Part shown: piece by piece, positions 1 through 27,008 of the stretch
Position numbering within the stretch: the first letter of the stretch is position 1
Layout: every line of letters starts with the position of its first letter
Origin: a virus
Strand: one strand, 5' to 3'
DNA: 28,074 nucleotides
Virus record (IMG/VR): IMGVR_UViG_3300036820_000632
Span: 1 to 28,074 of that record
Program-made: the position numbers and the translations under genes
The notes under the pieces: model-generated
What the model saw: only the letters and a program-made list of their open reading frames with translations
The model's database searches: none
What the model was told of the DNA's origin: nothing

Positions 1-735
1 GAGAACCTGGCCCCTGACCATCGACTTGTCCGCTGGCTGGGCGAGGACGCCGCGCTCAGGTTGGCGCACACTTTTGGCGGCGAGGACATAACCGTCCCGA
101 ATTGCCGGAACGCTACGCGGAAGGCCGAGATCTGGGCGGATTTCATGGCTGAAATGCCGATTGCGGAGATCGCACGCAAATATGGCGTCACGGAGCGGCG
201 GGTCAGGCAGATTACGGCGGAGGAGCGCGGACCACTCCCCGCGGATTTTCACCGCATGATTGCGGCCGGCCCACGTTCTCCCGAGCGCGCCGCCATGAAT
301 CGGCTCAACGGCACCCTTGGCGGCCGAACAAACTCCATGATCAAAGAAATCCTGCTCCGGCTGCGCGGCCAGCCTCAGTCCCCATATGGGGCGATGTACA
401 CCATGCTCAATCTCTTCCAGCCGACGCTGGAGGTGGTGATCAACGAGGAGAGGGCCATGGAGGTCACCATCGAGCGAGCCGTTGAGCTCGTGGCGGCCCG
501 CCTGCCCGCCACCCTCGAAATCCGTCACGGCGACCGTGCATCGCTGATGATTCTTCGGCCCGCGAAGCAGGCGCGCAATCAAGAGGACCTCATGATCTGC
601 GTGCGCACGCCCGTCGGGCCCAAGACGATAAGTCAAAACTCCATCGTCATCTGGGGACTCCAAGCGCTCGCCGAGTCGGCTGTGATCGATCGGGAATCCG
701 CGAAAGCGGAGCCCAGCCCGCAACAGGCCGCATGA
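1..735 (+). CDS. Mor/C-family late transcription activator with extra C-terminal domain (5' partial)
   Basis: The reading frame is open from the first base, so the true start lies outside the window; 244 codons are visible. The visible N-terminal part matches the layout of Mu Mor/C activators: LVRWLGEDAALRLA helix, a GGEDITVP turn (the family's 'FGG..iyIP' motif, about residues 25-32), then a helix-turn-helix ending in YGVTERRVRQI (about residues 60-71). Mor and C are dimers that bind dyad sites and recruit RNA polymerase to promoters lacking a good -35 box. Unlike Mu Mor (about 129 aa), this protein runs about 165 residues past the HTH into a region I do not recognise, with no stop or frameshift. 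It overlaps the small terminase gene by ATGA. Likely role: switching on the morphogenesis genes downstream. An internal TTG at 61 could be called as a start but would cut the Mor domain. Confidence 0.75.
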   Translation, partial: ENLAPDHRLVRWLGEDAALRLAHTFGGEDITVPNCRNATRKAEIWADFMAEMPIAEIARKYGVTERRVRQITAEERGPLPADFHRMIAAGPRSPERAAMNRLNGTLGGRTNSMIKEILLRLRGQPQSPYGAMYTMLNLFQPTLEVVINEERAMEVTIERAVELVAARLPATLEIRHGDRASLMILRPAKQARNQEDLMICVRTPVGPKTISQNSIVIWGLQALAESAVIDRESAKAEPSPQQAA

Positions 736-1283: not shown

Positions 1284-3177
1284 CCGAAATCGGCGAATTC
1301 CCAGCGTTTCCTCACCTGAGCCGGGGATTTGGCGCACCAGCCGCGTCCCGTACACGCGGGAGATAATGGATTCGATGAGCGACCCGGCGGTCCGCGAGGT
1401 CGTTTTCCGTAAAGGCTCCCAGGTCGCGGCGAGCGAAATCATCATCAACGGCATCGGTTTCTACATCGAACACGAGCCATCCCCGCAGCTTCTGTTCCAA
1501 CCCACCACCACGACGGCAGAGGACTTCTCCAAAGACCGGATCGCACCCACCATCCAGGAAACCCCATGCCTCAGGGACAAGGTGGCCGACCCGAAATCAC
1601 GGGATTCCGGCAACACGATCCTCCACAAGAACTACCCAGGCGGGAAATTGGTGATCGGCGGCGCCAATGCCCCCACCAACCTGGCCAGTCACCCCGTCCG
1701 AATCGTCTGGTTCGACGAAGTTGACCGGTATCCCGCTTCCGCCGGCGCTGAAGGCGACCCGATCGCGCTCGGCACCCGCCGCACGCAGAATTTCTGGAAC
1801 CGGAAGGTGTTTCTGGCTTCGACCCCGACGCTAAAGCAAACATCCCGAATCTGCCGCGCTTTCGAGGCTTCAGACCAGCGCCACTACTACGTGCCGTGTC
1901 CTTCCTGCGGGGAGCCGCACATCATCGAATTCAAGAACCTGCATTGGGAGGAGGGAAAGCCCGAGACTGCCAGCCTCAACTGCCCGAAGTGCCAAACGCC
2001 CTACACCACAGTCCAAAAAAACCAGGCAGTAAGGAAGGGCTTCTGGCGCGCGCACGCGCCGTTCAACGGATCGGCCGGTTTCTTTCTGTCCGGGCTATAT
2101 TCGCCCTGGGTCGAGCTCGAGCAGATCGCCCGGGAATGGGAGAAGGTGAAGGACATCCCCGAGGAATGCCAAACCTTCATAAACACGGTGCTTGGCGAGC
2201 CATACGAGGACACGACCGATGCTTTCGATTGGGCTACGCTCCAGGCCCGCGCGGAGGAGTACCCGTACCCTGTACCGTACGGCGTTCTCTGCCTCACCGC
2301 CGGCGTCGACACCCAACCCGACCGCCTCGAGTGCGAAATCGTCGGCCACGACGAGAACAGCCGCACCTGGAACATCGACTACATCGTCATCCACGGGGAT
2401 CCCGATATCGAGCAGGGGAAGCCTGACTGCCCCTGGGATGAGCTTTTGAATGTCATTCGGGACCGGAGCTACACGCACGCGTGCGGCTTTGGGATGAAAG
2501 TCTACGCCACAGCGATTGATTCTGGCGGCGCCAACACGACGGCGGTCTATAAATTCTGCAAGGGGCGCAAGGCGCAGCGGATTTTTGCGATCAAGGGCGT
2601 GTCCGGCGAAGGATTGCCGATCGCCGGGACCCCTAACCGCAAGCAGACCGGCAAGTCCCGGCGACCGGTCGATCTTTACCCGGTCGGCGTCGACCAGGCC
2701 AAGGCCGCGCTCTACCGGCGGTTCAAGATCGCGGAGCCGGAAAAGCCGGCGTACTGCCATTTTCCGACCGCCCGGCCAGAGGAATATTTCAAGCAAATCA
2801 CCTCAGAAATCGTTGTGACGCGCATGGTGAAAGGTTTCCCGAAGCGGGAATGGACGCTCCCGAGCGGGCAACGCAACGAAGCCTTGGACTGTCGCGTGTA
2901 CGCAATGGCCGCGGCGGCGATCGTGCGTCCTCCGTGGGACAGGTTCATCCGGATCCGGGGCGAATATCTGAAGGCCTGCGCCGAACCGCCGGTTGGGTCC
3001 CCAGGGCACGCGGCCGCTGGGCAAGCCCGACCGACGCCGCGCTTCACGCCGGCGGAACCCAGCGCGGAAGCCGGCGCGCTGGGAAATACACCCCCGAAAC
3101 CGGACACTTCCCGCCCAACCAAAGACGCCAAAGGCCGACGCCGACGGCGGCATAATCCTTTCGTGACATCATGGTAA
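1207..3177 (+). CDS. Terminase large subunit, GpA family
   Basis: ATP-driven DNA packaging motor and nuclease. With a TTG start at 1207 (weak GGGAG just upstream) it is 656 aa, near lambda A (641). An ATG at 1099 is in frame but would overlap the small subunit by 185 bp, and the conserved GpA N-terminus ('W.PPP.LT.S.WAD..R') begins just after 1207. Visible motifs: Walker A-like K69-G-S-Q-V...S-E77 in the deviant GpA form, Walker B WFDEVD (D170, E171), a zinc-knuckle pair C231/C234 and C259/C262, and the C-terminal nuclease with GVDTQPDRLE (about D368) and AIDSGG. The last 60 residues are low-complexity and include a dyad repeat (3058-3083). The stop overlaps the next ATG by 7 bp. The family call is sure; the start is uncertain. 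Confidence 0.92.
   Translation: MYAGIWSDIARTWAPPPKLTLSQWADRNRRIPSVSSPEPGIWRTSRVPYTREIMDSMSDPAVREVVFRKGSQVAASEIIINGIGFYIEHEPSPQLLFQPTTTTAEDFSKDRIAPTIQETPCLRDKVADPKSRDSGNTILHKNYPGGKLVIGGANAPTNLASHPVRIVWFDEVDRYPASAGAEGDPIALGTRRTQNFWNRKVFLASTPTLKQTSRICRAFEASDQRHYYVPCPSCGEPHIIEFKNLHWEEGKPETASLNCPKCQTPYTTVQKNQAVRKGFWRAHAPFNGSAGFFLSGLYSPWVELEQIAREWEKVKDIPEECQTFINTVLGEPYEDTTDAFDWATLQARAEEYPYPVPYGVLCLTAGVDTQPDRLECEIVGHDENSRTWNIDYIVIHGDPDIEQGKPDCPWDELLNVIRDRSYTHACGFGMKVYATAIDSGGANTTAVYKFCKGRKAQRIFAIKGVSGEGLPIAGTPNRKQTGKSRRPVDLYPVGVDQAKAALYRRFKIAEPEKPAYCHFPTARPEEYFKQITSEIVVTRMVKGFPKREWTLPSGQRNEALDCRVYAMAAAAIVRPPWDRFIRIRGEYLKACAEPPVGSPGHAAAGQARPTPRFTPAEPSAEAGALGNTPPKPDTSRPTKDAKGRRRRRHNPFVTSW
3058..3083. 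repeat. Dyad repeat copy 1 (inside terminase 3' end)
   Basis: CCCAGCGCG, 8-nt spacer GAAGCCGG, CGCGCTGGG: a perfect 9-bp inverted repeat, the same as the copies at 5490, 13089 and 19872. This copy is within the terminase coding region rather than after a stop codon. At the position where the other copies carry TAAACT or TATTCT it has GACACT (3103-3108), so any promoter role is weakest here. It lies 88 bp before the 3171 gene. Confidence 0.85.
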
Positions 3178-5489: not shown

Positions 5490-5515
5490 CCCAGCGCGGA
5501 AGCGGGCGCGCTGGG
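5490..5515. repeat. Dyad repeat copy 2 (portal / capsid boundary)
   Basis: CCCAGCGCG-GAAGCGGG-CGCGCTGGG, perfect 9-bp arms, starting two bases after the portal stop codon. It could fold as an RNA hairpin (no U-tract follows) or act as a dimeric protein site. See the promoter entry next to it. Confidence 0.9.
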
Positions 5516-5521
5516 AGACGA

Positions 5522-5551
5522 ATCGACGGCGGAATAAACTCCGCCGTCGAT
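5522..5551 (+). promoter_or_regulatory. Putative activated promoter inside a perfect 12-bp hairpin before the capsid gene
   Basis: ATCGACGGCGGA (5522-5533), loop ATAAAC, TCCGCCGTCGAT (5540-5551) is a perfect 12-bp inverted repeat. A -10-like TAAACT (5535-5540) sits across the loop and begins 32.5 bp from the centre of the dyad at 5490-5515. The predicted +1 is near 5547, three bases before the ATG at 5550, so the mRNA would be almost leaderless. The first two bases of the ATG are in the right arm. No -35 box is visible, as expected for Mor/C-activated promoters. Function is inferred. Confidence 0.5.
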
Positions 5552-7499: not shown

Positions 7500-7529
7500 T
7501 CGGCGCATCGCCGGGGAGATTTTTCCATC

Positions 7530-7889: not shown

Positions 7890-8234
7890 ATGGTAGCCCC
7901 CTGTCTCGATATTGCCCTCGACCAGGGGGCCGACTTTCAGCAGCTCGTCAATTTCACCCAGTCGGACGGGGTGACGCCAATCGATCTGTCGGCCTACACC
8001 GGCGATATGCAGGTACGCGACCGACCTGGCGGAGTGCTCCAGATCGAGCTCACGACCGCCAACGGTCGCATCGCGACGGACAGCCAGGGTAATGTCACGA
8101 TGACGATTGCCGCCGCTGACACGGCCGCGCTCACGCCGGGGCGGTACTTCTACAATTTGCGCCTGATCTCCGGAGAAAACGTTGCAGCCCTTCTCCAGGG
8201 ATCATTCACGGTCAACGCGGCCGTCAACCAATGA
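7890..8234 (+). CDS. Small beta-sandwich phage protein (fibre-associated type)
   Basis: 114 aa. The text 'LDQGADFQQLVNFTQSDGVTPIDLSAYTGDMQVRD', 'GNVTMTIAAADTAALTPGRYFYNLRLISG' and a final '...LLQGSFTVNAAV' is a common small phage protein pattern (substrate- or fibre-associated Ig-like fold: 'G.d....i.w...dG.piDLtgyt...qvR...'). These often sit next to fibre genes, and the next gene here encodes a collagen-like fibre-like protein whose ATG overlaps this stop (ATGATG, 8231). No Shine-Dalgarno is visible before the ATG. The function is not known; an adaptor between capsid or neck and the fibre is possible. Confidence 0.75.
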   Translation: MVAPCLDIALDQGADFQQLVNFTQSDGVTPIDLSAYTGDMQVRDRPGGVLQIELTTANGRIATDSQGNVTMTIAAADTAALTPGRYFYNLRLISGENVAALLQGSFTVNAAVNQ

Positions 8235-10318
8235 TGCGGCGCATAGCATTCATCGCGACATTCGCCAGCGCGCTCACCGCGCGGGCGATCCTTTTTCCGT
8301 CGAACCCGGTTGTCCACGTGAACGGCGGAATTCCAGGTCCGCGTGGGAATTCCGTGCTCAACGGATCAGGAGCCCCGGCTTCCGCGACCGGCATTGTTGG
8401 GGACTTCTATATCGATATCTCCGCAACGCCGTACGAGCTTTACGGCCCGAAGGGGAGCGGCGGATGGGGATCGCCGGTGGCGCTCGGCGGCGGCTCGGGT
8501 TCGGCGGCCAACACCATCTGGAATGGCTCCGGCGTCCCGAGCAATACCCTCGGTTCCAACGGGGATTTCTACATCGATACCGTCGCGCATGCTATCTATG
8601 GGCCGAAGGCCTCGGGAGCGTGGGGTTCGGCGACGTCTCTGATCGGGCCCGCCGGGGCCACCGGTGCTACAGGGCCCGCTGGGCCGACTGGGCCAACCGG
8701 AGCGCAAGGCCCGCAAGGAGTGGCCGGCCCGGCAGGTTCCACCGGCCCACAAGGGCCGACCGGTGCCACCGGAGCCCAGGGTACGGCCGGAGCAAATGGT
8801 TCGACCTGGTATAGCGGCAGCTCGGTGCCCTCTTCAGGCATTGGCGGAAACGGCGACTACTATTTTCGCACCACGACCGGGGACGTTTACCTCAAGGCAT
8901 CCGGCTCATGGGGCTCTCCGATTGCCAATCTGGTGGGCCCGCAGGGCGCTACCGGCGCTACTGGGGCCACAGGATCCACCGGCGCTACCGGCGCCCAGGG
9001 GGCCGCGGGCCCGGCGGGCGCGAACGGCAACACGGTTTGGAACGGTTCCGGCGCGCCCTCGGGGGCCGTTGGGGTCAACGGCGACTTCTACATCGATACC
9101 GCAGGGAGTGAGATCTACGGGCCAAAGGCCTCGGGGGCATGGCCGACTGGCGTATCGCTCATTGGGCCGGCCGGCGCTACTGGGGCGACGGGTCCCAGCG
9201 GTATATCCGGCGCGACTACCAATGGGGCGGTATATGCGACCTCGGCGACAGGAGCGGGAAGCACATCGGCGCTCGGAGATGGGCAATTCATGATCGGTTC
9301 GTCCGCGGGGGCTCCTGCGGTAGGTACGATCACGCAAGGAACGGGGATTACTGTCACGCCGGGGCACAACACGCTCACCATTTCAGCCACCGCATCTGCC
9401 GCGACCGTGTACACCTATTCGAGCAATGCGACCTGGAGCAAACCTTCCGGTTGCTCCACGGTTATCGTGATTTGCTGGGGCGGCGGCGGTGGTGGTGGCG
9501 GCGGAAACGTTGGGGCATCTGGAACGCAACGAAATGGTGGGGCCGGTGGCGGTGGGGGCGCGCGCGTAGAGAGAATAATCCCGGCGTCAATGCTTCCGAC
9601 TACCGTTGCAGTCACCGTCGGTTCTGGGGGATCCGGAGGTGCTTCGGGTTCCGCTGGCGGCAATGGTTCAGCTTCGCAATTTGGCACCTGGGTATTTGCC
9701 GGCGGCGGTGGCGGCGGGGCGGCGGGGAGTAACTCCGCAAATTGCTCGGGCGGTGGTGGTGGCGGCTCTGCGAGTTCAGGGGGCGCAGGGTCATCGTCCG
9801 CCGCGGTCGCGGGCGGGAATCCCGCTGCATCGACTTCGGCGACGACTGTGGGCGCCGGCACAGGGGGCACGGGGTGGGCGACAAGCCCGGGCGCCAGCGC
9901 CGAATACGGCGGTGGCGGCGGTGGTGGCTCAAACGGCACTGGGGCGAAATATTCTGGCGGCGGCAGCATGTACGGTGGCGGTGGTGGCGGCTCAGGCGGG
10001 GGGGTGAGCACCAGCAATACGCTCACGTCGTCGGCCGCCGGCGGTGCGAGCGGGTCGTATTCCAGCGGCACGGGGGGAAGTTCTGGGTCGAGCGATGGGG
10101 CTTCTGGAAGCGCCGGCGCGAACGCGTCGAACAATGCAAATGCCGGTAGTGGCGGCGGCGGTGGGGATGGGAGCGTGGCTTCCACGGGTGGCAATGGGGG
10201 CGCTGGAGGCACGCCGGGCGGTGGTGGCGGCGGCGGCGGCGCTGCCATAACCGGGCAGACCTCGGGCTCGGGCGGAGCTGGAGGGGGCGGCTATTGCGAG
10301 GTGATTTCACTCTACTGA
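8231..10318 (+). CDS. Collagen-like, glycine-rich fibre-like protein with signal-peptide-like N-terminus
   Basis: 695 aa. Residues 1-19 look like a Sec signal peptide (MMRR, hydrophobic core, ALTARA). Four copies of a module of about 45 residues follow (about 41-85, 95-140, 190-235, 267-312) with the pattern 'W.GSG.P....G..GDFYID....IYGPK.SGAWG...L.GP'. Between them lie Gly-X-Y collagen runs (139-190, 236-267, 312-326), which would form a trimeric triple helix. Residues about 393-695 start with 'YTYSSNATWSKPSGCSTVIVICWGGGG', the glycine-rich domain seen at the tips of phage fibres, and are dominated by Gly/Ser/Ala. The repeats are typical of tail or head fibres that bind host surfaces. The location in the head module rather than with the tail-fibre genes, and the signal peptide, are odd. 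It overlaps the next gene by TGATG. Confidence 0.85.
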   Translation: MMRRIAFIATFASALTARAILFPSNPVVHVNGGIPGPRGNSVLNGSGAPASATGIVGDFYIDISATPYELYGPKGSGGWGSPVALGGGSGSAANTIWNGSGVPSNTLGSNGDFYIDTVAHAIYGPKASGAWGSATSLIGPAGATGATGPAGPTGPTGAQGPQGVAGPAGSTGPQGPTGATGAQGTAGANGSTWYSGSSVPSSGIGGNGDYYFRTTTGDVYLKASGSWGSPIANLVGPQGATGATGATGSTGATGAQGAAGPAGANGNTVWNGSGAPSGAVGVNGDFYIDTAGSEIYGPKASGAWPTGVSLIGPAGATGATGPSGISGATTNGAVYATSATGAGSTSALGDGQFMIGSSAGAPAVGTITQGTGITVTPGHNTLTISATASAATVYTYSSNATWSKPSGCSTVIVICWGGGGGGGGGNVGASGTQRNGGAGGGGGARVERIIPASMLPTTVAVTVGSGGSGGASGSAGGNGSASQFGTWVFAGGGGGGAAGSNSANCSGGGGGGSASSGGAGSSSAAVAGGNPAASTSATTVGAGTGGTGWATSPGASAEYGGGGGGGSNGTGAKYSGGGSMYGGGGGGSGGGVSTSNTLTSSAAGGASGSYSSGTGGSSGSSDGASGSAGANASNNANAGSGGGGGDGSVASTGGNGGAGGTPGGGGGGGGAAITGQTSGSGGAGGGGYCEVISLY

Positions 10319-13088: not shown

Positions 13089-13114
13089 CCCAGCGCGGAA
13101 GCGGGCGCGCTGGG
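13089..13114. repeat. Dyad repeat copy 3 (gpV / sheath boundary)
   Basis: CCCAGCGCG-GAAGCGGG-CGCGCTGGG, identical to copy 2, starting directly after the gpV stop codon TAA. Confidence 0.9.
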
Positions 13115-13133: not shown

Positions 13134-13159
13134 TATTCTCCCGCCACATCCTCCCAAAT
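13134..13159 (+). promoter_or_regulatory. Putative activated promoter for the sheath operon
   Basis: TATTCT (13134-13139) begins exactly 32.5 bp from the dyad centre at 13101.5, the same offset as in the other two intergenic modules. A +1 near 13146 would leave a 14-base leader before the sheath ATG at 13160. No -35 box and no Shine-Dalgarno are visible. The role is inferred from the conserved spacing. Confidence 0.5.
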
Positions 13160-14689
13160 ATGCCCGGCCAATATCTTCACGGTGTTCTGGTGACGGAGGT
13201 GGAATCCGCCGCCGGCACGACGCAAACCCTCGCGAGTTCTGTCATTGGCCTGGTCGGCACCGCCCCCGGCGCACAAGCCTCCGCGTCTGCCTCGCTCGCA
13301 ATCGGCACGGTCGGCGCGAACAACGGCATCACCCTGACGGCGGCTCAGGCCGGCTCGGCGGGCAACAACATCAGCCTGAGCATCCGCACGCCGGGCGTCC
13401 AGAACGCCGCTCTTTCGATCCAGGTCAACAGCAACGCCATCGTGGTGAATCTCGCCACTAGCGGCGCGACACCGCCAGCGGTCACCACCACCGCGACGCA
13501 GCTACTCGCCGCGCTCGAGGCCAATGCCGATGTGATGGCCCTGGTGACCGCGGCCGCTACGGGCGGCTCCAGCGGCGCGGGCTTGGTCGCGAGCCTGAAC
13601 CAGACTTTCCTCGCGGGCGGCTTGGACGCGGTCGGTGCCGTGAATGTGCCCTATCTCGTCACGTCGGAGAGCCAGATTGCCGGGTTTGGGACCGGCGGAA
13701 CAATTCCGCAGGCCCTGCAGGACATCTTCGATCAAGGGAACGCCACCGTCGTGGTGGTCGTGGTCGCCCAGGTCGAGAACGAGGATTCGAACCCCGGCAC
13801 GATCACCAACGTGATCGGCGCTCTGAGCGGCACCACATACACCGGCCTCAAGGCCCTGCTGGGGGCCGAGAACCAGCTCGGCGTCATCCCGCGGATCATC
13901 ATCGCCACGGGTTTCTCCCAGAACCTCTCCGTCGCGAACGAAATGTTGGTTGAGGCCGCCGCGCTCCGGTCCATCGCCGTCATTGACGGGCCCAACACGG
14001 ACGACGCCGACGCCGTCGCATATATCCAGAACTTCGGCTCCGCCCGCGCCTATGTCGTGGATCCCGGCGTGCAGATCACGAGCGCCGCGACCGGCCTCAC
14101 GGTCACGGCCTTCGCCTCCGCCCGAGTGGCCGGCCTCATCTCGGCCAACGACCAGGCCAACGGCTTCTGGACGAGCCCGTCGAATCAGTTGCTCGCGAAT
14201 ATCCTCGGCACCACGCGCCCGGTCGATTTCTCGTTCAACAACCCGAATTGCCGGGCGAATTACCTCAACAGCCTGAACATCGCCACCATCATCCGGGTGA
14301 GCGGCGGCTTCCGACTCTGGGGTGATCGTTCGGCGTCGATCGACCCGAATTTCGCATTCCTGCAGGTTCGCCGCACCGCGGACATCATTGAGGATTCCAT
14401 CCAGCGCGCCCATCTGTGGGCCGTGGATAAGAACATCACCAAGGATTACCTCAACCAGGTGGTCGCCTCGGTCCAGGGCTACCTGGACAGCCTGAAGGCC
14501 CTTGGCGCGATCCTGGACGGCACGATCACGGCGGATCCGTCCCTGAAAACCGTCCAGAACATCCAGACGGGGAAAGTCTACTTTGACATCTCCTTCACCC
14601 CGCCGACGCCGGCCGAACAGGTGAACTTTACGGTCAACCCCGTTGCCACCTCCGGCTACGCCAGCCTCCTTTCCAACTCGAGCTCGTAA
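13160..14689 (+). CDS. FI: Contractile tail sheath protein (FI family) with an inserted domain
   Basis: 509 aa; P2 FI is 396. It polymerises around the tube and contracts on infection. The N-terminus 'VLVTEVESAAGTTQTLASSVIGLVGTAPG' and, after a gap, 'VNVPYLVTSESQIAGFGTGGTIPQALQDIFDQGNATVVVVVV' are the two halves of the standard P2-type opening. Later sheath motifs include 'LGVIPRIIIATGF', 'RAYVVDPGV', 'RVAGLISANDQANGFWTSPSNQ', 'RANYLNSLNIATIIR', 'GFRLWGDRS' and 'FLQVRRTADIIEDSIQ'. Between the two N-terminal halves (about residues 41-157) sits an extra domain that also occurs in gpJ of this phage. It is the first gene after a dyad module and 9 bp before the tube gene. Confidence 0.95.
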   Translation: MPGQYLHGVLVTEVESAAGTTQTLASSVIGLVGTAPGAQASASASLAIGTVGANNGITLTAAQAGSAGNNISLSIRTPGVQNAALSIQVNSNAIVVNLATSGATPPAVTTTATQLLAALEANADVMALVTAAATGGSSGAGLVASLNQTFLAGGLDAVGAVNVPYLVTSESQIAGFGTGGTIPQALQDIFDQGNATVVVVVVAQVENEDSNPGTITNVIGALSGTTYTGLKALLGAENQLGVIPRIIIATGFSQNLSVANEMLVEAAALRSIAVIDGPNTDDADAVAYIQNFGSARAYVVDPGVQITSAATGLTVTAFASARVAGLISANDQANGFWTSPSNQLLANILGTTRPVDFSFNNPNCRANYLNSLNIATIIRVSGGFRLWGDRSASIDPNFAFLQVRRTADIIEDSIQRAHLWAVDKNITKDYLNQVVASVQGYLDSLKALGAILDGTITADPSLKTVQNIQTGKVYFDISFTPPTPAEQVNFTVNPVATSGYASLLSNSSS

Positions 14690-15292: not shown

Positions 15293-15538
15293 ATGGATAA
15301 GACCACCATCCCCCTGAAAACCCCGATCGAACACAACGGGCAGCGGTTCACCGAAATCACCATCCTTCGGCGGCCGAAGACCAAGGACGTGCTCCGAAGC
15401 CGCAAGGGCAAGAGCGACGAAGAGGCGCAGCTCGCGCTGATCAGCAACCTCACCGAGATCGCCCCGGAGGTGTTTCAGGAAATGGACTACGCCGATTACG
15501 TCCGGGTCGCGGAGGCCGTCGCGGGTTTTTTATCCTGA
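15293..15538 (+). CDS. E: Tail assembly chaperone E
   Basis: 81 aa from ATG 15293; P2 E is 91. With its frameshifted partner it coats and chaperones the tape measure protein during tail assembly. 'TIPLKTPIEHNGQRFTEITILRRPKTKDVLRSRKG...EEAQLALISNLTEIAPEVFQEMDYADYVRVAEAVAGFL' is the standard gpE pattern ('l..Pi...G...teltlR.P...D......g......e..l.aa.tgl..e....ld..Dy..l...v..Fl'). The gene ends ...GGT TTT TTA TCC TGA, where T TTT TTA is a slippery heptamer for -1 frameshifting. An earlier in-frame start at 15230 lies in the hairpin region and is rejected. Confidence 0.93.
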   Translation: MDKTTIPLKTPIEHNGQRFTEITILRRPKTKDVLRSRKGKSDEEAQLALISNLTEIAPEVFQEMDYADYVRVAEAVAGFLS

Positions 15539-15678
15539 CCGAGGAAACTGCGCGCTCCCTCGTCATCGCGCTCGCGCATCACACCGGATGGGCGCTCGCC
15601 GAAATCAACGAAATGGACATCGCCGAACTATTGGATTGGGTGGACGCGCTGCCGCGTGAACAGCTGAGCCATGCCTGA
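15293..15678 (+). CDS. Tail assembly chaperone E+E' (programmed -1 frameshift product)
   Basis: Translation that slips back one base at 15526-15532 continues as ATC CTG ACC GAG ... to TGA at 15676-15678, giving a protein of about 128 aa (80 from E plus about 48). The E' part reads 'ILTEETARSLVIALAHHTGWALAEINEMDIAELLDWVDALPREQLSHA', which matches the P2-type E' pattern ('...W....i..m...el..w...l'). It has no start codon of its own, and its stop overlaps the tape measure ATG (ATGCCTGA at 15671-15678). P2 E+E' is 142 aa. Frameshifting of these genes is well known in tailed phages; that it happens here is inferred from the intact slippery site and the conserved E' frame. Confidence 0.88.
15526..15532 (+). 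other. Slippery heptamer T-TTT-TTA
   Basis: In the E frame the codons are GGT TTT TTA TCC TGA, so the seven bases TTTTTTA fit X-XXY-YYZ with both tRNAs able to re-pair in the -1 frame. It is the same heptamer as used by HIV-1 gag-pol. A possible stimulatory stem, CGAGG (15540-15544) with CCTCG (15558-15562), begins eight bases downstream. Confidence 0.88.
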
Positions 15679-19871: not shown

Positions 19872-19897
19872 CCCAGCGCGGAAGCAGGCGCGCTGGG
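19872..19897. repeat. Dyad repeat copy 4 (gpD / gpW boundary)
   Basis: CCCAGCGCG-GAAGCAGG-CGCGCTGGG, perfect 9-bp arms, with one spacer base different from copies 2 and 3. It starts two bases after the gpD stop codon TAA. Confidence 0.9.
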
Positions 19898-19910
19898 AGT
19901 GGGTCGGCCG

Positions 19911-19929
19911 CGGGAATAAACTCCCGTGA
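19911..19929 (+). promoter_or_regulatory. Putative activated, leaderless promoter for the baseplate operon
   Basis: TAAACT (19917-19922) begins 32.5 bp from the dyad centre at 19884.5. The predicted +1 is 19929, which is the A of the gpW ATG, so the message would be leaderless. CGGGA (19911-19915) and TCCCG (19922-19926) flank an ATAAAC loop identical to that before the capsid gene. Promoter function is inferred. Confidence 0.5.
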
Positions 19930-20267
19930 TGCTCGGCACCGATCGAAACACCGGGAAGCCGCTCGCCGGCCTTGCGCACCTCTTCCAGTCCGTCACCGAC
20001 ATCCTCACCACTCCCCTTGGGAGCCGGGTCGAGCGACCCACGTACGGATCCGAGGTGTTCGATCTCATCGACTCCGACCTTACCCAGGCCGGCCTCGTTA
20101 ACCTCTATCATGCCGCCGCCTCAGCCCTCGCTGCTTGGGAGCCCCGTCTTCAGGTCACCCAGATTAAGGCACGGGTCGTTCAGGCCGGATCGGTCCTGAT
20201 CGACATCATCGGCATCTACCTGCCCGACGGGAAGCCCATCACGCTCCAGGGAATCGTGGTCTCCTGA
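19929..20267 (+). CDS. W: Baseplate wedge protein W (gp25-like)
   Basis: 112 aa from ATG 19929; a GTG three bases earlier is possible but the promoter geometry favours the ATG. P2 W is 115 aa. 'GTDRNTGKPLAGLAHLFQSVTDILTTPLGSRVERPTYGSEVFDLIDSDL' is the classic gpW/gp25 pattern ('G.d..tg..i.g..hl.Qsi.diL.TP.gsRv..r.yGs.l..liD.p'). It ends 'LQVTQIKARVVQAGSVLIDIIGIYLPDGKPITLQGIVV'. It starts sheath assembly at the baseplate. It is the first gene of the last transcription unit in the window and is coupled to gpJ (TGATG). Confidence 0.94.
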   Translation: MLGTDRNTGKPLAGLAHLFQSVTDILTTPLGSRVERPTYGSEVFDLIDSDLTQAGLVNLYHAAASALAAWEPRLQVTQIKARVVQAGSVLIDIIGIYLPDGKPITLQGIVVS

Positions 20268-26249: not shown

Positions 26250-27008
26250 ATGAGCCGCAGATACAGCTACCGCCCGCCGCCGGCGAATCACCCGTTCCTT
26301 GCGACAGCTCCCCGGCTTTTGACGGACGCGGTGCCGCCCGCGCTACCAAGTTCCATCGATCTGCGGGGCATCATGCTCCCGGTGCGCGACCAAGGGCAGG
26401 AGGGATGCTGCTCCGGGTTTTCCTCCGCGGCATTCCGCGAGGCGCTCTATCGCCAGCAGAATGGCGTGTTCGCGCCGTGCGGCTATCTCTCTCCAGCATA
26501 TCTCTACGGGCGCACCCGCATGGCGGAGGGCACGTTCCCCGCCGACGCCGGCGCCACGTTGGTCGACGAGTTCATGACCCTCTACAACTACGGGGTGTGC
26601 CCGGAGGAGAGTCTCCCGTACAACCAGAACCCCGCGGAGGCGCCCACTCCCGCTTGCGATGTTGCTGCCCAACCTTTCCGAATCCCAGCGCCACTCGGAG
26701 TCCCGGTCTCAGACCCGGTCTTCCTGAAAACCGCGCTCGCTCGCAATTTGCCGGTCGCGTTCGGGATGCCCGTCTACCAGTCGTTCGAAAGCACCGGCTC
26801 CTCTGGGCTGGTGGCCATTCCGGACAAGTCGCGCGAAACCCTACTTGGTGGCCACGCGATGCTTGCCGTCGGTTACGATGATGCCCGCGGCGTCGTGATC
26901 GTACGGAACTCCTGGGGCTCGTCCTGGGGTGATGGCGGCTACTGCTACATGCCGTACGCGATGATCAGCGGATGGTTCGAGGGCTACACCATCACGCCGG
27001 CCGCCTGA
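26250..27008 (+). CDS. Papain-family (C1A) cysteine peptidase
   Basis: 252 aa. The full C1A active site is present: oxyanion Gln48 and nucleophile Cys54 in RDQGQEGCCSGF, His202 in LLGGHAMLAVGYDD, and Asn220 in VIVRNSWGSSWGDGGYCYMP. 'LPSSIDLRG' marks the start of the mature enzyme. There is no signal peptide and no inhibitory I29 propeptide, only about 30 residues before the catalytic domain. Papain-like enzymes cut proteins or peptide bonds; in this place, just before a holin-like gene, it could be a lysis or entry enzyme acting on the cell envelope, or act on a host protein. It is not a standard muramidase or amidase, and I see no cell-wall-binding domain. The gene is 3 bp after the previous one. 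Confidence 0.9.
   Translation: MSRRYSYRPPPANHPFLATAPRLLTDAVPPALPSSIDLRGIMLPVRDQGQEGCCSGFSSAAFREALYRQQNGVFAPCGYLSPAYLYGRTRMAEGTFPADAGATLVDEFMTLYNYGVCPEESLPYNQNPAEAPTPACDVAAQPFRIPAPLGVPVSDPVFLKTALARNLPVAFGMPVYQSFESTGSSGLVAIPDKSRETLLGGHAMLAVGYDDARGVVIVRNSWGSSWGDGGYCYMPYAMISGWFEGYTITPAA

Follow-up and report, generated by a model that had tools for sequence, protein, structure and literature searches.

In phage P2, several late operons are each preceded by a dyad for an Ogr-type phage activator. In phage Mu, Mor binds as a dimer to a 16-bp dyad centered at -43.5, where it replaces the -35 element (PMC4390567). The Mu C protein serves four late promoters, whose -10 sites are non-consensus (PMC4461284). 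In the oligonucleotide table of the latter study, the sequence ATAAYCCC precedes TAGACT, CAAACT, and TATCCT by exactly 28 nt in the lys, I, and P promoters; that these three hexamers are the Mu -10 elements is our own reading of the oligonucleotides (PMC4461284).

The sequence studied here is a 28,074-nt window of one virus contig (IMG/VR record IMGVR_UViG_3300036820_000632). It belongs to a tailed phage with a contractile tail, in which the head genes are lambda-type and the terminase and portal are of the lambda family. A 26-bp dyad, CCCAGCGCGGAAGCnGGCGCGCTGGG, is present in four copies, all in one orientation, at positions 3058, 5490, 13089, and 19872, compared with 0.15 matches expected from dinucleotide shuffles when up to three mismatches are allowed. 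These four dyads and a 12-bp palindrome at 5522-5551 are the only perfect stems of at least 9 bp (loop 3-10) in the 28 kb. Each dyad is followed at one spacing by a hexamer, and we refer to the pair as a module. Relatives were drawn from IMG/VR scans as one close group, L014, L020, and L025, of which L014 and L025 share one source metagenome. The features, with their counterparts in this group, are as follows.

1 to 735, plus strand: Mor-family late activator gene, its 5' end cut by the window start and its frame open to base 1; it encodes an HTH and a C-terminal region of ~150 aa.
3058 to 3083, plus strand: dyad of module 1, within the 3' end of terL; orthologous elements lie in the terL tails of L020 (3184) and L025 (12190).
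3103 to 3108, plus strand: hexamer of module 1, GACACT (weak); CAAACT in L025 and CAGACT in L020 at the same place.
5490 to 5515, plus strand: dyad of module 2, in the portal/capsid gap; orthologous element at L014 2061.
5512 to 5517, plus strand: TGGGAG, separated by 17 nt from the module 2 hexamer and occupying the -35 position; GGGAG is kept in L014, L025, and L020.
5522 to 5551, plus strand: second palindrome, a 12-bp perfect stem with a 6-nt loop, the longest perfect stem in the window.
5535 to 5540, plus strand: hexamer of module 2, TAAACT, with a predicted +1 at 5547 and the capsid ATG at 5550; L014 has TAGACTCC at equal spacing.
13089 to 13114, plus strand: dyad of module 3, in the gpV/sheath gap; orthologous element at L014 7222.
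13134 to 13139, plus strand: hexamer of module 3, TATTCT, with a predicted +1 at 13146 and the sheath ATG at 13160; TATTCTCC in both phages.
19872 to 19897, plus strand: dyad of module 4, in the gap preceding gp25/gpJ/gpI.
19901 to 19940, plus strand: imperfect hairpin over the module 4 hexamer and the gp25 start codon (z -4.05 when the whole stretch is folded as RNA).
19917 to 19922, plus strand: hexamer of module 4, TAAACT, with a predicted +1 at 19929; gp25 starts at GTG 19926 or ATG 19929.

A sequence-only reading of this DNA had reported three intergenic dyads with arms around a free N8 center. The copies at 5490, 13089, and 19872 lie where it placed them and their arms pair without mismatch; its count needs revising, because the window holds a fourth copy at 3058-3083 within terL, with GACACT at equal spacing, and the center is not free sequence but reads GAAGCnGG in every copy. 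Read in the terL frame, the copy at 3058 encodes P-S-A-E-A-G-A-L-G. The three intergenic copies fill gaps of 55-71 nt, which agrees with the earlier description of them as occupying the main gaps of an overlapping array; elsewhere in the ORF list the genes are packed, and the three dyads begin 0-1 nt past a stop codon. Module 1 leads into the head-tail adaptor and portal genes, module 2 into a protease/capsid fusion gene, module 3 into the sheath gene, and module 4 into gp25, gpJ, and gpI. The other long gap (15538-15671) separates a tail-chaperone-sized ORF from the tape measure gene. It lies at the expected place of the tail-assembly chaperone, where a frameshift product may bridge it, as in other contractile-tail phages.

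Measured from the first base of GCGGAAG in the dyad, the hexamers GACACT, TAAACT, TATTCT, and TAAACT follow at 39 nt, a distance that corresponds to 32.5 bp from the dyad center. For the three intergenic copies (hexamers at 5535, 13134, and 19917) this is the spacing originally proposed, and the accompanying view that it is fixed across unconserved DNA is borne out by the 17-nt spacers, just 6-8 of whose 17 positions are identical between window copies. The claim that no -35 box is visible is right in substance. In every window copy the -35 position is taken by TGGGAG (TGGGAA at 3058), which is separated from the hexamer by 17 nt and overlaps the right dyad arm; this sequence (TGGGAG/GGGGAG) is a poor match to TTGACA. 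A scan for sigma70-consensus promoters found none near the modules; the sigma factor of the host may have a different consensus.

The suggestion that a Mor-family gene begins the cluster is upheld by two profile matches. Pfam Mor matches the window protein at E=3.2e-9 (37.2 bits, with a cut-off of 24.9; the L020 homologue scores 27.6 bits), and PHROG 836/532, annotated as late transcriptional activator, matches at E=6e-11. The gene lies directly upstream of terS and opens the cluster. Its counterpart in L025 precedes terS and follows genes whose translations, inspected by eye, read as methyltransferase, helicase, and HNH-type proteins. This order puts the activator where early and late genes meet; the sole module copy in the 12.3 kb of L025 is the one in terL. 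Full-length homologues of 282 aa are encoded in L020 (34-882) and L025 (8980-9828). The window protein and these relatives are 49% identical overall and have the HTH segment VTERxVR in common. The C-terminal region of ~150 aa is conserved between the two groups, and in the window protein it matches no Pfam or PHROG family.

Structural comparison of the activator is limited by a weak model (mean pLDDT 56.8). Its HTH aligns with that of Mu Mor (1rr7) at Z 5.5 over 48 residues with an rmsd of 3.9, and 1rr7 is among the top rows for this segment, where other HTH proteins score similarly. The C-terminal region of the same model gives middling, mixed structural matches. A Foldseek search with the model returned nothing at E<=0.001, so we assign the protein no fold; a PDB sequence search with it found no match.

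Set against the described systems, the modules resemble the Mu C promoters. As at Plys, PI, PP, and Pmom, several promoters would be served by one Mor/C-family dimer from a site at fixed spacing; the right dyad arm in the window begins 28 nt before the hexamer, as does the Mu half-site, and the hexamers are of the same non-consensus -10 kind. The site sequence, in contrast, is unrelated: ATAAYCCC occurs in no module, and the window dyad is longer and GC-rich. The phage also differs from Mu in its lambda-type head, terminase, and portal, and in having one predicted promoter within terL. The likeness to Mu Pm lies in the dyad position (near -43.5 in Mu and -44.5 here), the presence of a -10, and a Mor-family protein. 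Pm, however, is one middle promoter with two 5-bp repeats in 16 bp, recognized by a Mor of 129 aa, whereas here there are four late sites of 26 bp and a protein that in the relatives has 282 aa and an extra C-terminal region. P2 offers a further parallel in its several late operons with upstream dyads, and the window phage has P2-like tail genes, but the P2 activator is of the Ogr type and that of the window belongs to the Mor family. The Ogr element TGT-N12-ACA is absent from all eight module regions, four in the window and four in the relatives. The modules are thus best read as a variant of Mu Mor/C-like promoters in a phage that is itself not Mu-type.

The relatives retain the geometry of the modules around a diverged element. 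The L014 portal, capsid, and sheath proteins are 62-64% identical to those of the window, and the L025 terL product is 66% identical. In place of the window dyad, this group has CCTAACGCGGAAGGAACACCGGGGGGAG, which is identical in the L014 portal/capsid and gpV/sheath gaps and the L025 terL tail and slightly altered in the L020 terL tail. These sites match the positions of three of the four window copies; the gp25 site is covered by no contig of the group. At each of them the distance from the first base of GCGGAAG to the hexamer is again 39 nt (TAGACTCC, TATTCTCC, CAAACTTT, CAGACTTT). The hexamers of the terL sites are weak in the window and its orthologues alike, and CAAACT in the L025 terL tail keeps the spacing of the window modules. 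Across the eight sites the shared pattern is ACC-n-A-n-CGCGGAAG ... G ... GGGA ... A-nn-CT.

The sheath site, at which the window and L014 share the hexamer TATTCTCC, allows the parts of a module to be compared. Between the two phages, the element is identical at 18 of 28 positions, the hexamer with the next two bases at 8 of 8, the spacer at 3 of 17, and the downstream DNA at 12 of 44. The 54 nt of upstream coding DNA are identical at 33 positions, roughly equal to the element. The weight of the argument is therefore carried by the hexamer and by a distance that stays constant although the bases in between are not conserved, and less by element identity alone. An element, fixed spacing, and TAnnCT kept at orthologous sites despite changed intervening DNA are, on sequence grounds, the hallmark of a promoter whose activator site is held in phase. 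The half-site letters CC-N3-CG / CG-N3-GG are mostly retained in the relatives, which fits the binding of a protein dimer to DNA, although symmetry is weak there and the elements are not clear palindromes.

Several counts bear on the strength of this pattern. On the plus strand, TAnnCTCC occurs five times in the window, three of them at the module position, and twice in L014, both at the module position. By our own arithmetic, with the sequence at a frequency of ~2.3e-4 per base in L014, the probability that two copies fall at an offset fixed beforehand is ~5e-8. When a matrix is derived from the three intergenic sites of the window and applied to ~0.6 Mb of loci, the two L014 sites come out on top outside the window (scores of 10.9 and 9.7 bits), with the best chance match narrowly behind at 9.5 bits and the L025 terL site at 2.3. 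An unbiased search for hexamer pairs that share upstream DNA scores 33-37 of 45 in the window, 34 of 45 in L014, and at most 28 in all other loci. An exact-module scan of IMG/VR returned both sites of L014 and one chance match in an AT-rich gene of L016.

The comparison draws on this one related group. In distant relatives (L012, L018, L028-L051, and others) repeated pairs of element and hexamer do not rise above background, and in L018 and L019 inspection by eye of the DNA ahead of the capsid gene revealed no such element. The sheath-site DNA has no match among plasmids. Named phages give no DNA match to the window, no protein match to the activator, and only matches below 60% for capsid and sheath, and the one-per-species genome collection contains no relatives of the portal.

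We consider it likely that the four modules are late promoters used by host RNA polymerase under the control of a Mor/C-type activator that the phage itself encodes. This was the proposal of the sequence-only reading, and it gains from the persistence of the module at orthologous sites in a group that is 62-66% identical and possesses a Mor-family gene. The earlier description of a complete circuit goes further; binding of the activator to these sites, their promoter activity, and the start sites are what we infer from the arrangement. Under this model, a Mor/C-family protein would bind the predicted sites as a dimer from about -57 to -32, with the dyad center at about -44.5, and would recruit or activate host RNA polymerase containing the housekeeping sigma factor. 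The polymerase would use a -10 of the form TAnnCT, with the non-consensus TGGGAG at the -35 position. One activator would in this way control four transcription units: adaptor-portal (from within terL), protease/capsid, sheath onward, and baseplate-fibre.

Late-gene control is seldom readable from sequence in uncultivated phages, and here both an activator and its candidate promoters can be named. The two phage groups form a natural pair in which the site has diverged and the geometry is constant, so it becomes directly testable how activator and site co-evolve and what fixed phasing contributes to activation of the Mor/C type. Such regulation would also be extended to a phage that combines a lambda-type head, a terminase, and a contractile tail.

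The strongest competing explanation keeps the modules as promoters but has the dyad bound by another factor, either an activator from the host or a repressor of the phage that keeps the late genes silent in lysogeny. The Mor-like gene is tied to the sites by family and position only, dyads are as typical of repressors, and the palindrome at 5522-5551 covers the -10, where a repressor would act. The dyads themselves, however, abut the -35 position from the upstream side, as activator sites usually do, and the poor -35 sequence means that activation is needed. The element also differs between the phage groups, as expected for a phage-encoded protein, and a late-activator-family gene is present in every member of the group in which the region upstream of terL is visible. 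On balance, we regard binding by such another factor as improbable.

A second alternative is that the dyads act as RNA hairpins after stop codons, marking termination, 3'-end protection, or processing. The position of three copies immediately after stop codons would suit this role, and the 9-bp GC-rich stem folds well as RNA. The dyads, however, are not followed by a T-run and are missing from the output of a terminator scan; one copy, like its orthologues, is located within terL, and the exact spacing to TAnnCT would go unexplained. Of the nine dyad pairs compared across the eight sites, three are kept in all and a fourth in seven, one changes to T/G, and the remaining four are disrupted in most or all of the relatives, with no compensatory changes, so the 9-bp RNA stem is not conserved. 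The perfect palindrome of the window is absent from L014, L020, and L025, which argues against an RNA hairpin, a terminator, or a mobile repeat, and we judge a hairpin function quite unlikely. A mobile host palindrome (REP or MITE-like) copied into the phage, which near-identical copies and one within a reading frame might suggest, is scarcely credible and largely refuted by orthologous conservation: the positions are kept with a diverged element and equal hexamer spacing, the copies share a single orientation, CCCAGCGCGGAAGCnGGCGCGCTGGG has 0 matches in the one-per-species genome collection (so the scatter through a host genome that the earlier reading had named as damaging to the promoter proposal is not seen there), and the seven other IMG/VR contigs that carry the dyad have unrelated centers and flanks.

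Alongside the proposed activator-driven promoters, two of the sites have a second layer of symmetry. The palindrome at 5522-5551 spans the hexamer of the capsid site, and its last two bases are the AT of the capsid start codon. RNA folding also places the hexamer of the L014 capsid site in a hairpin loop, and the sheath sites show no hairpin of comparable strength. A described parallel is T4 gene e, where a hairpin spans the late promoter and the start codon and masks read-through RNA, and the RNA made from the late promoter does not have the 5' arm (PMC3014915). The geometry at 5522-5551 is alike, although here masking is a prediction and would concern the capsid and gp25 sites only. Starts at 5547 and 19929 would give almost leaderless transcripts free of the 5' arm of the hairpin, and in read-through RNA the start codon would be masked. 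The palindrome at 5522-5551 may thus be a translational mask for read-through RNA or an operator for a repressor, and we hypothesize translational masking at both the capsid and gp25 sites. Most genes of the window and of L014 have no Shine-Dalgarno sequence, so short leaders are not odd in this phage; the host itself may rarely use one.

A more elaborate and tentative scheme can be drawn up, which we think doubtful as a whole. A Mor-family activator with an extra C-terminal domain of ~150 residues would control the four late promoters, its site having changed together with the protein while the geometry stayed fixed. The second palindromes at the capsid and gp25 sites would silence read-through RNA, so that synthesis of capsid and baseplate proteins would depend entirely on the nearly leaderless transcripts from their own late promoters.

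Three further features of the window fall outside the modules. A terminator-like stem-loop with a T-run lies immediately 3' of the capsid gene (7500-7514), and a collagen-like, glycine-rich repeat protein is encoded downstream of that gene (8231-10318). A papain-family cysteine protease (26250-27008; Pfam PF00112, E=6e-17) adjoins the tail-fibre and lysis region.
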